From: Enterobacter sp. RHBSTW-00175
Lineage (GTDB): Bacteria; Pseudomonadota; Gammaproteobacteria; Enterobacterales; Enterobacteriaceae
Direction of reading: 5' to 3'
DNA: 64,000 nucleotides
Assembly: GCF_013927005.1 (NCBI RefSeq)
Contig: NZ_CP055930.1
Coordinates: 1,116,001-1,180,000, forward strand
Both the position numbers and the translations under genes were made by a program. Below the pieces are notes generated by a model that saw nothing but the letters and a program-made list of their open reading frames with translations, did no database searches and was not told the origin of the DNA. Below are positions 54,961 to 58,895 of this stretch, piece after piece (the stretch's first letter is position 1; every line of letters starts with the position of its first letter).

Positions 54961-56937
54961 TTACTCGTCTTCCAGGTAAGTGTACCCGTACAGACCCGCT
55001 TCAAACTCTTCCAGGAACTGCTGCTGCAAGGCGTCGTCCAGACCGGTGTTTTTCACCTGATCGCGGAACTGGATAAGCAGTTTTTTCGGATCCAACTGAA
55101 CGTATTCCAGCATGTCCGCCACGGTGTCACCCTCATCGGACAGCTCAACTTCCACGCTGCCGTCAGGGAAGACAAACACGTCCACCGCTTCGGTATCGCC
55201 GAACAGGTTGTGCATGTTACCGAGGATCTCCTGGTACGCCCCGACCATAAAGAAGCCCAGCATTGGTGGGTTCTCCGGGTCGTATTCCGGCATTGGCATC
55301 GTGGTCGCGATACCGTCACCATCCACATAGTGATCGATGGCACCGTCTGAGTCACAGGTGATATCCAGCAGCACCGCACGGCGTTCCGGGGCGTGGTTCA
55401 GCCCTTCCAGCGGCAGTACCGGGAACAGCTGATCAATACCCCATGCATCCGGCATCGACTGGAACAGCGAGAAGTTGACGTAAATCTTATCCGCCATACG
55501 TTCCTGCAACTCATCGATAATCGGACGGTGCGCGCGGTTGCTCGGGTCGAGCTGTTTCTGCACTTCATGGCACATGTTCAGATAGAGCTGCTCTGCCCAC
55601 GCGCGCTCCTGCAAGCTAAAGGTGCCTGAAGAATAGCCGACGTGAATGTCGTGCAGATCCATCTGGCTGTCATGCAGCCATTCGCGCAGTGAACGGCGCG
55701 TGCCCGGCTCGTGCATCTCCTGCCAGGTTTCCCACATGCTTTGCAGGGAACGTGGGGCATCGTCTGCCGGAGGCGTCGCTTCGGTGATTTCGCTGCGTTC
55801 AACACCAATAATGTTGGACACCAGCACCGTATGGTGCGCGGTGACTGCACGGCCAGACTCGGTGATCACCGTTGGGTGCGGCAGGCCGTTCTCTTCACAG
55901 GCATCACCAATCGCCCAGATGATGTTGTTAGCGTATTCGTTCAGACCGTAGTTTACGGAACAGTCAGACTGCGAACGCGTACCTTCATAGTCCACACCCA
56001 GGCCGCCGCCCACGTCGAAGCACTGAATATTCACGCCAAGCTTATGCAGCTCAACGTAAAAACGCGCCGACTCACGTACACCTGTTGCGATATCGCGAAT
56101 GTTGGCCATCTGCGAACCAAGGTGGAAGTGCAGCAACTGAATGCTGTCCAGACGACCGCGCTCACGCAGGATCTCCACCAGTTGCAGCACCTGGTTTGCC
56201 GCCAGGCCGAATTTGGATTTTTCGCCGCCGGAGGACTGCCATTTACCGGAACCCTGAGAGGCCAGACGTGCACGCACGCCAAGGCGTGGGATCACGTTCA
56301 GACGCTCGGCTTCTTCCAGCACGATAGCGATTTCGGACATCTTTTCGATAACCAGATAGACCTTGTGGCCCATCTTCTCGCCAATCAGCGCCAGACGAAT
56401 GTATTCACGGTCTTTATAGCCATTACAGACGATCACTGAGCGGGTCATCCCCGCGTGCGCCAGTACAGCCATCAGCTCCGCTTTTGAACCGGCTTCCAGC
56501 CCCAGCGGTTCGCCAGAGTGGATCAAGGATTCAATGACGCGGCGATGCTGGTTCACCTTGATCGGGTAAACCAGGAAATAGTCGCCTTTGTAGCCGTAGG
56601 ATTCACGCGCGCGCTTGAACGCGGCGTTAATAGAACGCAGACGATGTTGCAGGATCTGCGGGAAGCAGAACAGTGCAGGCAAACGCTGGCCCTGTGCTTC
56701 GCGGGCTTTGACCAGCTTGGCGAGATCCACGCGCGCTTCAGGGACGTCGGGATCCGGGCAAACGCTGATGTGGCCCAGTTCGTTGACGTCGTAGTAGTTA
56801 TTGCCCCACCAGGCAATATTGTAAGTGCGCAGCATCTTGCTGGCTTCCTCGGAGCTCATCGCAACCTCCTGCATAGAACGTAGTACACCCTGTTCGCCCG
56901 CTGACGAAGGCGAAAAAGAAGACATGTCGTCAGACAT
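54961..56937 (-). CDS. speA: biosynthetic arginine decarboxylase
   Basis: This 658-residue PLP enzyme makes agmatine from arginine. The PLP lysine is in '[12 protein letters not shown]' (about residue 128), followed by the alanine-racemase-type barrel with '[10 protein letters not shown]' and '[13 protein letters not shown]', a helical insert and a C-terminal beta domain with '[12 protein letters not shown]'. The ATG at 56937 has a GAGG ribosome site inside the yqgB stop region (TGAGG, 6-base spacing), so yqgB and speA are likely coupled. The unusual leader is described separately. Confidence 0.97.
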
Positions 56938-56945
56938 AGCGAACC

Positions 56946-57077
56946 TCAACTCTTTGTAATAAGTGTAAAACAGTTGACTACTATCGCAGCGTTATACGGC
57001 GATAACAACCCATAAACGGCTCCGTTTTCCAGCATAGTATGCTGAAATCCTGACCGTGCGACCGGTTTCTTATTCAT
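56946..57077 (-). CDS. yqgB: small acid-stress protein YqgB
   Basis: This 43-residue protein matches YqgB: 'MNKKPVA' at the start, '[16 protein letters not shown]' hydrophobic stretch near the end. It sits between the leader hairpins and speA, 8 bases before the speA ATG. E. coli YqgB has been tied to the acid/arginine response. There is no good ribosome site before its ATG, hinting that its expression is controlled by upstream translation. Confidence 0.85.
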
Positions 57078-57133
57078 ATCATTGTAAAACACGTATCCGA
57101 ACTCTGTATGACAAGGTTCGGCGAAACCACGAG

Positions 57134-57165
57134 AAAACTCTTGTATTAACAAGAGCGCCCTTGTT
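57134..57165 (-). promoter_or_regulatory. candidate attenuator: two mutually exclusive hairpins in the speA leader
   Basis: On the minus strand three short blocks follow in order. Block 1 is AACAAG (57165-57160), block 2 CTCTTGTT (57155-57148) and block 3 ACAAGAG (57144-57138). Blocks 1 and 2 can pair (6 bp, six-base loop); alternatively blocks 2 and 3 pair (7 bp, four-base loop) and are followed by TTTTCTC, which looks like an intrinsic terminator. Block 1 begins six bases after the stop of the 47-codon ORF, so a ribosome ending that ORF would mask it and favour the second hairpin. The U-run is short, so it may also act at the level of yqgB translation. Confidence 0.5.
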
Positions 57166-57171
57166 CAGTTT

Positions 57172-57315
57172 TCACAAAGCGTGACCGGCCCTGGAATCCT
57201 GAGAAGCGCCGAGATGGGTATAACATCGGCAGGTTTGCAGACTAGAAATGCGGGTTGCGGGAATCAAATGCGCGCCAGAACGGCTGCGCTGAATTAGCGG
57301 AAAACGATGGTTCAT
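57172..57315 (-). CDS. candidate leader peptide upstream of yqgB-speA (47 aa)
   Basis: The ATG at 57315 is preceded by GGAGGTGAT (57332-57324), nine bases fully complementary to the 16S rRNA 3' end, with 8 bases to the ATG. The 47-codon frame ends at 57172. The peptide has no membrane segment; it contains six Arg (including rare CGA and AGG codons), two Cys and several His, and ends 'SRAGHAL'. I do not recognise it. The strength of its ribosome site, unlike that of yqgB, and its place just before an attenuator-like structure argue for a real translated leader of the arginine decarboxylase mRNA. Confidence 0.55.
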   Translation of the reverse strand: MNHRFPLIQRSRSGAHLIPATRISSLQTCRCYTHLGASQDSRAGHAL

Positions 57316-57407
57316 TATCTCGTATCACCTCCACGGCCGCTCCTGTTGAAACGGACCACAAGCCAAAGCTAAAAGTTCACTGCTTAACCCGGCTGGAAGT
57401 GGCGACA

Positions 57408-57433
57408 CGATGAGTTCATCGAGCGCTTTTTTT
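57408..57433 (+). other. palindrome with T-run facing metK
   Basis: CGATGA-GT-TCATCG, extendable by an outer GCG/CGC pair, is followed on the plus strand by seven T residues. It looks like an intrinsic terminator for some plus-strand transcript, though none is evident, or a 5' stem of the speA transcript on the other strand. The stretch 57316-57740 otherwise holds the divergent promoters described separately. Confidence 0.4.
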
Positions 57434-57453
57434 GCATGAGCCGCGCGCCGCGT

Positions 57454-57482
57454 TTTATACCGAGAAGGTGGCTAAAAAGCAA
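57454..57482 (-). promoter_or_regulatory. sigma-70-like promoter for the speA leader
   Basis: TTGCTT, 17 bases, TATAAA on the minus strand (-10 five of six). It would start RNA near 57447, giving a leader of about 510 bases before speA that contains the 47-codon ORF and yqgB. Confidence 0.5.
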
Positions 57483-57596
57483 AACAAAAATATGCGTGTT
57501 GCCATCGCCGTCAGGAAATATTTCCAGCTTCGATTTCAACGCAGTGAGAGCTTAGTCAAAAAAAACTGGAAATCGGGTGAAGAAGTGACCTAAAAT

Positions 57597-57628
57597 AGAC
57601 GTCCAGATGTTAATCCATCCATACTGAT
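57597..57628. promoter_or_regulatory. MetJ operator (tandem met boxes) upstream of metK
   Basis: Four adjacent 8-base units start with AGACGTCC and AGATGTTA, close to the met-box consensus AGACGTCT, then two weaker units. This is the expected MetJ-SAM repression site of metK. TAGAAT at 57670 is a possible -10, and AGGTGA precedes the metK ATG. Confidence 0.75.
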
Positions 57629-57740
57629 TAACACTCAGACTGCCAGTGTCAAAATCCTGCAGGCCTTGGTAGAATTATCTCCTTTGGCTATTCCACACAG
57701 CAGCTTGAGCTAACCAAATTCCTCTTAGGTGAAATAAAAC

Positions 57741-58895
57741 ATGGCAAAACACCTGTTTACGTCCGAGTCCGTATCAGAAGGACATCCTGATAAAATTGCT
57801 GACCAAATCTCCGATGCGGTGCTGGATGCGATCCTGGAGCAGGATCCTAAAGCGCGCGTAGCGTGTGAAACCTATGTCAAAACCGGCATGGTTCTGGTTG
57901 GCGGTGAGATCACCACCAGCGCATGGGTTGATATCGAAGAGATCACCCGTAACACGGTGCGTGAAATCGGTTATGTACATTCTGATATGGGCTTTGATGC
58001 CAATTCTTGTGCAGTACTGAGCGCAATCGGCAAACAGTCTCCGGACATCAACCAGGGTGTTGACCGTGCCGATCCGCTGGAACAGGGCGCGGGCGACCAG
58101 GGTCTGATGTTCGGTTATGCAACCAACGAAACTGACGTGCTGATGCCAGCACCTGTGACCTACGCACACCGTCTGGTGCAGCGTCAGGCTGAAGTGCGTA
58201 AAAACGGTACCCTGCCGTGGCTGCGCCCGGATGCGAAAAGCCAGGTAACCTTCCAGTATGACGACGGCAAAATCGTCGGTATCGATGCCGTAGTTCTGTC
58301 CACTCAGCACGCCGAAGATATTGATCAGAAATCTCTGCAAGAAGCCGTGATGGAAGAGATCATCAAGCCGGTACTGCCTTCCGAGTGGCTGAGCGCGTCG
58401 ACCAAATTCTTCATCAACCCAACCGGACGCTTTGTTATCGGTGGCCCAATGGGTGACTGCGGTCTGACCGGTCGTAAAATCATCGTTGATACCTACGGCG
58501 GCATGGCGCGTCACGGCGGCGGTGCATTCTCTGGTAAAGATCCGTCTAAAGTTGACCGTTCTGCTGCGTACGCTGCACGTTATGTTGCGAAAAACATCGT
58601 TGCTGCGGGCCTGGCTGACCGTTGTGAGATTCAGGTTTCCTACGCTATCGGCGTGGCTGAACCAACCTCCATCATGGTTGAAACCTTCGGTACTGAGAAA
58701 GTGCCTTCTGAACAGCTAACCCTGCTGGTGCGCGAGTTCTTCGACCTGCGTCCATACGGCCTGATTCAGATGCTGGATCTGCTGCACCCAATCTACAAAG
58801 AAACCGCTGCGTACGGTCACTTTGGTCGTGAACATTTCCCATGGGAAAAAACCGACAAAGCCGCGCAGCTGCGTGAAGCTGCCGGCCTGAAATAA
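57741..58895 (+). CDS. metK: S-adenosylmethionine synthase
   Basis: This 384-residue enzyme makes SAM from methionine and ATP. It shows '[18 protein letters not shown]' (residues 13-30), '[15 protein letters not shown]' and the Gly-rich loop '[16 protein letters not shown]' (about residue 258). Length matches E. coli MetK. It also feeds polyamine synthesis with SpeA/SpeB products. Confidence 0.98.

Follow-up and report, generated by a model that had tools for sequence, protein, structure and literature searches.

Polyamine synthesis starts with arginine decarboxylase, the product of speA. In the TnaC leader, a nascent chain senses a catabolic substrate and Rho is blocked; peptide, gene and ligand differ there from those of the yqgG-speA locus treated here. 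By analogy, the closest worked-out case for this locus is orf34-speF of Salmonella. Translation of orf34 blocks Rho, its Arg codons sense arginine and a hairpin lies past the stop; low arginine favors speF, and frequent Arg codons sensed arginine like rare ones (PMC6386406). In E. coli, mdtU-mdtJI resembles the present locus in joining a uORF with a conserved C-terminus to Rho and to a polyamine function, and differs in its exporter gene, in its peptide and in an experimentally demonstrated spermidine effect (PMC7815308). The E. coli toiL-topAI pair is similar in that uORF stalling frees a sequestered ribosome site and relieves Rho termination, and different in that ribosome-targeting antibiotics are sensed and a toxin-antitoxin gene is controlled (PMC12121999).

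For speA, the translation of yqgG (PMC8921622) and Rho termination in the E. coli leader (PMC7815308) are already published. The termination was reported without a mechanism and yqgG as a small protein, and neither is explained in the papers listed by the searches; among these openly licensed papers, no link of yqgG to speA control was found. New here are the conserved ORF end, two slow Arg sites, a rut-like tract, covariation of the 2:3 hairpin and the position of hairpin H2 at yqgB. We read YqgG, with a probability of roughly 0.6, as a cis-acting leader peptide whose translation shuts Rho out and controls yqgB-speA, in the manner of orf34/SpeFL at speF. On balance, yqgG would join the leader peptides that control Rho as a new and well-conserved member; the sequence suggests that ribosome reading of yqgG decides whether arginine decarboxylase is made. 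Anatomy, conservation, codon bias and covariation form the basis, all drawn from sequence, and we infer the steps that link yqgG translation to Rho termination. Joining yqgG with speA-leader Rho termination gives a direct test, feasible in E. coli K-12. Polyamine synthesis would gain, on its arginine branch, a non-homologous counterpart of SpeFL; further gains would be a candidate for ribosome arrest, the six conserved terminal residues, and a case of apparently conserved codon speed.

The window, that is, the whole stretch of DNA analyzed, comprises 64,000 nt of Enterobacter sp. RHBSTW-00175 (NZ_CP055930.1, 1,116,001-1,180,000), and all coordinates are window positions. A 47-codon ORF (57315-57172), yqgB and speA follow in this order on the minus strand, with metK divergent. 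The mapped parts are:

57454..57482, minus strand: promoter-like TTGCTT-17-TATAAA, ~140 nt upstream of the small ORF
57324..57332, minus strand: Shine-Dalgarno (SD) GGAGGTGAT of the small ORF, nine bases
57172..57315, minus strand: uORF, yqgG homologue of 47 codons with a C>G (rut-like) tract, from Pfam PF23505 and conservation
57226..57228, minus strand: slow Arg codon CGA (R30, -15 from the motif end), from codon conservation
57184..57201, minus strand: conserved C-terminal codons QDSRAG, from selection on codons
57190-57192, minus strand: slow Arg codon AGG (R42, -3) within QDSRAG, from codon conservation
57156..57166, minus strand: block 1, GAACAAGGGCG, 19-25 nt past the motif Gly codon in 72/76 core leaders
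57137..57156, minus strand: hairpin H1 (the 2:3 hairpin of the preliminary description), then TTTTCTC, from covariation
57123..57137, minus strand: strongly conserved TTTTCTCGTGGTTTC, possibly pairing with block 1 and so extending H1, no covariation
57097..57121, minus strand: hairpin H2, its 3' arm overlapping the likely yqgB ribosome site, from covariation
56946..57092, minus strand: yqgB (NF033844, PF11036), likely start GTG at 57092; the usual annotated start type is the ATG at 57077
54961..56937, minus strand: speA, biosynthetic arginine decarboxylase, from similarity

The elements on which the preliminary description was built are all present on the minus strand: behind its nine-base SD, the small ORF runs from the ATG at 57315 to a TGA ending at 57172 (translation MNHRFPLIQRSRSGAHLIPATRISSLQTCRCYTHLGASQDSRAGHAL), and AACAAG (57165-57160), CTCTTGTT (57155-57148), ACAAGAG (57144-57138) and TTTTCTC (57137-57131) follow.

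Two sets of leaders were compared. The core set (n = 81) holds the window and 80 Enterobacteriaceae loci, the best 80 of 437. The divergent set (n = 91) consists of leaders of the window's wide family picked for divergence, from 80 of 132 speA-matching genomes and 11 others, and reaches genomes with a SpeA N-terminus only ~82% identical to that of the window (G400). An ORF with a strong SD is found in 79/81 core and 70/91 divergent leaders. Among these, TATAAA lies 60-200 nt upstream of the ORF in 70/79 core and 57/70 divergent leaders, and a TTG at -35 with a 16-18 spacer to TATAAA is seen in 64/79 and 54/70. A sigma-70 scan of the window did not list the promoter-like element, whose -35 matches only 3/6. 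On the plus strand, 57408-57421 and the Ts that follow form a terminator-like hairpin with a T-run, upstream of yqgG.

RefSeq names the 47-codon ORF yqgG (MG1655 b4784), and the window protein matches Pfam PF23505 (YqgG) with 61.1 bits at a cut-off of 27, which means that the ORF is not unknown: judged by similarity, it is a homologue of E. coli yqgG. The region is matched in 5375/5426 E. coli genomes, nearly all at 80-90% identity. When two other leader peptides were scanned with PF23505, a divergent one scored 36.6 bits and one ending in DTCAG gave no match; PF10940 (SpeFL/ORF34) gave no match at E <= 1 among the three leader peptides scanned. E. coli yqgG was picked up as an sORF in start-site profiling, where its count is low (6), and an epitope-tag western blot confirmed it (PMC8921622). 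The MG1655 annotation also carries yqgC (L253 1688-1903), antisense to yqgG and partly overlapping it, which may not be a gene.

The C-terminal motif, defined as D[SPTA][RSGC]A[GS], occurs in 76/81 core and 48/91 divergent leaders (52 with four further divergent ORFs ending in RAG). The divergent set also contains 21 leaders without a strong-SD ORF and 18 more that have an ORF without the motif. A leader RNA model under strict filters matched 11/295 genomes of the order at E <= 0.001, all of the window's family; at E <= 1 it matched 64/149 genomes of the family, and many of the remainder are reduced genomes.

The N-terminus of the peptide is variable and its end nearly fixed, QDSRAG, often directly before the stop codon, which follows the motif immediately in 34/52 divergent ORFs and lies 3-21 nt past it in the core set. 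The last six codons often change synonymously and seldom in the amino acid encoded, with dN/dS of 0.010 in core and 0.142 in divergent sequences, a low value that stems partly from row selection, as only the 128 motif-bearing sequences were used. The first 20 codons are loosely held (0.65 core, 0.62 divergent). In the other two frames of the last 20 codons, the ratios are 0.73 and 3.7 in the core and 0.88 and 1.35 in the divergent set. For the 14 codons preceding these six, the ratio is 1.09 (core) and 0.63 (divergent); core bases hardly vary there, synonymous or not, which indicates that RNA constraint is mixed in. By this pattern, the ORF looks less like a folded protein than like a nascent-chain signal at its very end, preceded by an RNA constraint. 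The conservation expected among relatives in the preliminary description is thus present, in the ORF itself and in coding selection on its last six codons.

The upstream residues of the SecM motif are absent from YqgG. Arrest at RAG/P or RAPP is described for SecM and RAPP peptides (PMC10951299, PMC10951233), and YqgG keeps the RAG. It differs in what follows: His comes after RAG in the window, no Pro is among the commonest next residues (six per set), and the next codon is a stop in many divergent ORFs and free in the core.

Two arginine codons stand out. Codons counted as slow (AGA, AGG, CGA and CGG) are taken from E. coli usage. At Arg -3, a slow codon is used in 119/128 motif-bearing sequences (76/76 core, 43/45 divergent with Arg there), and at Arg -15 in 116/128 (CGA in 76/76 core, slow in 40/41 divergent). 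Elsewhere in the same ORFs, slow codons account for 71/454 Arg codons (29/277 core, 42/177 divergent), and in speA of 80 loci for 98/3006. The two sites are twelve codons apart. When eight rare codons are profiled over positions -30 to -1, the profile reaches 0.91 at -15 and 0.93 at -3, with 0.46 at -26 (CCC) and at most 0.09 elsewhere. Since it concerns synonymous choice, this result is less open to row selection; Fisher values for it are descriptive only, the species being related. At -3, first and third bases vary within the slow set, so decoding speed fits better than base pairing. At -15, where the core has CGA only, an RNA constraint may also act, and this codon may be part of the constraint on the 14 codons mentioned above. 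Codon speed, beyond the amino acid, thus seems to be conserved at two fixed sites, as read from codon usage. These are the same codons, CGA at 30 and AGG at 42, that had been singled out earlier as potential slow sites.

Could YqgG instead be a trans-acting small protein whose leader position is incidental? The western blot of the E. coli protein (PMC8921622), the existence of a Pfam family (PF23505) and the conserved C-terminus all agree with such a role. A length that ranges from 44 to 68 residues among ORFs with the motif and an N-terminal dN/dS near 0.65 speak against it, as do codon-level conservation at two sites, the C>G tract and the near-fixed spacing to block 1. A function in trans is thus unlikely, and the cis-acting leader peptide is retained as the preferred reading.

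A C>G skew marks Rho loading and is used here as a proxy for rut. Over the uORF, C exceeds G in 149/149 leaders with an ORF (79/79 core, 70/70 divergent), and it still does when the last 20 codons are removed (79/79 and 68/70). After a slide of 144 bases, the excess is seen in 3/79 core leaders on either side and in 14 and 24 of 70 divergent ones. It is likewise rare over yqgB (3/79 core, 14/70 divergent) and the start of speA (2/79 and 12/70), two stretches whose borders are approximate: the speA start was taken three bases early in 80 loci and is approximate by up to tens of bases in divergent loci. In the window, 6% of 144-base stretches reach the skew of the uORF, so that single genomes prove little and it is the agreement across genera that carries weight. 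In E. coli, the speA 5' UTR has a Rho-dependent 3' end by Term-seq with a Rho score of 3.1, backed by a lacZ fusion and a northern blot, and yqgB-speA is among the candidate uORF-gene pairs of that study (Adams et al. 2021, PMC7815308); yqgG was not found in its searched main text, with one occurrence counted elsewhere in the article. The likely terminator of the speA leader is Rho.

The preliminary description had proposed a classical attenuator, in which a 1:2 antiterminator competes with a 2:3 intrinsic terminator. Both pairings can be drawn in the window, and a T-run follows 2:3. A terminator scan picks the 2:3 hairpin (57156-57137), which has 8 pairs of which 3 are G-C; it found 4 terminator-like sites in the window against 1.7 +/- 1.4 in shuffles, and so is not decisive by itself. 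By its make-up, 2:3 is a weak intrinsic terminator. The 166-nt leader RNA is mildly more stable than expected (folding z -1.70), 10/200 shuffles folding equally well. What lifts the leader above chance is conservation: the ORF in 79/81 core leaders, the motif in 76/81, and compensatory changes in 2:3 and H2.

Covariation was scored in an alignment of 67 rows, the window and 66 of 67 distinct loci with identical copies collapsed; L026 (wrong anchor place), L003 and L020 (no SD) and L023, L029 and L035 (insertion) were left out. H1 and H2, counted with H0, hold all 48 cells that changed on both sides, where shuffles of the whole structure give 15.5, and their covariation score is above all 500 shuffles. 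Covarying pairs (6 against 4.2 expected) were reached by 33/500 shuffles and pair types (17 against 15.3) by 80/500; only the cell counts and the score exceed all shuffles, and the species in the alignment are related. The 1:2 pairing was rejected, as it has zero compensatory changes in the 67 leaders. Its pair at columns 89/98 is broken in 13/67, and in 12 of these a change on the opposite side preserves the pair of 2:3. Thus, of the two stems, 2:3 shows covariation and 1:2 does not. With 1:2 broken where 2:3 is kept, 2:3 only 3/8 G-C and the published E. coli termination Rho-dependent (PMC7815308), an attenuator of this kind is very improbable, and one half of it is wrong as drawn. Control by leader translation, the broader part of the earlier proposal, fares better, with a conserved ORF, a selected end and a translated E. 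coli homologue (PMC8921622); the 1:2/2:3 switch is not supported.

Block 1 does not vanish with 1:2. Of the 91 divergent leaders, 18 keep GAACAAGGG, and what follows it in 11 of these does not resemble the 2:3 (H1) arm, which points to some other role. From the RAG Gly codon to AACAAGGGC, the distance is 19-25 nt in the 72 of 76 core leaders listed above; the other 4 have no match to the block pattern. This distance is kept and the stop drifts (3-21 nt past the motif), so the geometry follows the motif rather than termination of translation. A ribosome of the usual footprint standing at RAG would end just before block 1.

Several further pairings were considered. An extended H1, block 1 with TTCTCGT, is drawn by the folding program; it has no covariation and three of its pairs are invariant. 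A long-range pairing of the CTCAGGA codons with TCGTGG has both sides nearly invariant. H0, inside the uORF (codons -16 to -9), seemed compensated in single genomes and is not claimed, since 143/500 shuffles reach its score in a control of 54 of 101 distinct sequences (16/54 core, 38/47 divergent), hand-picked for spread. Pairing of the left arm of H2 with the speA ribosome site was rejected for lack of joint change. CGCTCTT in H1, which we take to be boxA-like, was dropped because it is changed in Kosakonia loci. Rfam over 56700-57900 gave nothing at gathering score; its single match, at E 2, fell short of that score.

Some loci have lost the ORF naturally. In L003 and L020, SD and start are gone through a deletion that runs from just past the TATAAA box into the ORF; the motif of L003 is decayed and its hairpins are intact. 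In three Citrobacter loci (L023, L029 and L035), an insertion inside yqgG, presumably ERIC-like, breaks the frame (it is shorter in L029) and the hairpins are kept; the three share a change in an Ala codon downstream of the insertion. By sequence comparison, these leaders fit relaxed selection on the peptide once translation was lost. As H1 and H2 persist without an intact ORF, either the hairpins also act alone or the losses are recent. This persistence, together with the overlap of H2 with the likely yqgB ribosome site, agrees with the idea that H1 and H2 serve in RNA processing or in protecting a 3' end, or regulate nothing but yqgB translation, with no role for the uORF. Adams et al. also allow that speA 3' ends may come from processing (PMC7815308). 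Selection on the uORF end would be left unexplained, and the idea is quite improbable.

H2 leads to the question of where yqgB begins. From the leader alignments, YqgB probably starts at the GTG at 57092, five codons upstream of the usual ATG annotation. An in-frame upstream start codon is present in 69/81 core leaders (64 GTG, 3 TTG, 2 ATG), and in the remaining 12 a one-base loss creates a stop that overlaps the ATG as ATGA. The box before yqgB, GTGTTTTACA(A/C)T, encodes M-F-Y-N/T. Of the 81 core leaders, 66 have the speA ATG 8 nt past the yqgB stop, and in the other 15 it overlaps yqgB by 8 nt. Deleting yqgB in Salmonella lowers speA and speB transcripts (PMC13159126), a result that action of the leader in cis would fit.

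Taken with orf34/SpeFL, the yqgG leader has several points of likeness: a short ORF before a polyamine-forming decarboxylase, a hairpin after the stop, rare Arg codons with one by the stop, and a sequestered ribosome site of the enzyme (PMC6386406). Blocking of Rho by translation, described for orf34 in the same report, is proposed for YqgG. The peptides are unlike, YqgG matching PF23505 and not PF10940; its slow Arg codons are separated rather than adjacent, and yqgB stands between leader and enzyme.

In the proposed mechanism, the uORF RNA would be a Rho loading site, and strongly loaded ribosomes would cover the rut-like tract and exclude Rho. Pausing at the slow Arg codons, or arrest of the ribosome by the QDSRAG end of its own product, would let transcription go on, and the paused ribosome would leave block 1 and H1 free just past its edge. 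H2 would then be opened, or reached by coupled translation, so that yqgB and subsequently speA could be translated. With the uORF unoccupied or its ribosomes unpaused, the tract would be open and Rho would end transcription before or early in speA. The switch would respond to arginine, the substrate, or to the polyamine product, and arginine is favored as signal because arginine codons are singled out. Ligand and sign are the weakest steps of this proposal. The sign for speA is not transferable from orf34, since low arginine favors speF and frequent Arg codons work there too. Against the proposal counts that the stop has drifted past the motif in the core, unlike in leader peptides that arrest at the stop. 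So do the hairpins that survive in leaders with a lost or broken ORF, the divergent leaders that lack the ORF or its motif, and the low start-site count of E. coli yqgG.

A more tentative reading makes YqgG a ligand-sensing arrest peptide, held by arginine (or agmatine/putrescine) and shielding the coinciding rut tract. RCY near -14 and QDSRAG at the peptidyl-transferase center would then act together, helped by the slow Arg codons twelve apart. If true, the substrate of arginine decarboxylase would itself switch the enzyme across the wide family of the window.

The same leader anatomy would serve feedback in place of substrate induction, with a polyamine product (putrescine, agmatine or spermidine) arresting YqgG and switching speA off. 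Putrescine reportedly represses speA in E. coli, according to an older report, which counts for feedback; the phrase was not found in the openly licensed literature searched. The use of spermidine, Rho and a uORF by E. coli mdtU-mdtJI (PMC7815308) is a further point in its favor. The conserved slow codons are Arg, however, and Arg accounts for 11.3% of residues in the uORF but 5.7% in SpeA, which points at arginine. A ribosome stalled over the rut-like tract would, moreover, be expected to favor read-through. Feedback by a product is therefore rather unlikely, and arginine remains the favored signal of the cis-acting leader peptide.

Variant leaders extend the range of forms. A third leader group of six genomes (L126, L127 and L238-L241), from another group of genera, has the SD GGGGGT and an ORF without QDSRAG; these ORFs begin with MNHYLL, MNHCLL or MIHNLL and end in FRCYPHLSHR or unlike it, RCY being recognizable in some. 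In L225, L228 and L230 (G408, G353 and G419), the uORF ends early, at RCYSPLW, RSYFTFR and RCYPLLG, respectively, and a motif remnant, CTCAGGATTC, lies past the stop, in frame in one and shifted in two. For the speA 5' UTR of Shewanella, a terminator-like structure was predicted in 2009 (PMC2659441). In one genome (G018, C22), speA is in two pieces ~48 kb apart, and the leader ORF is without the motif.
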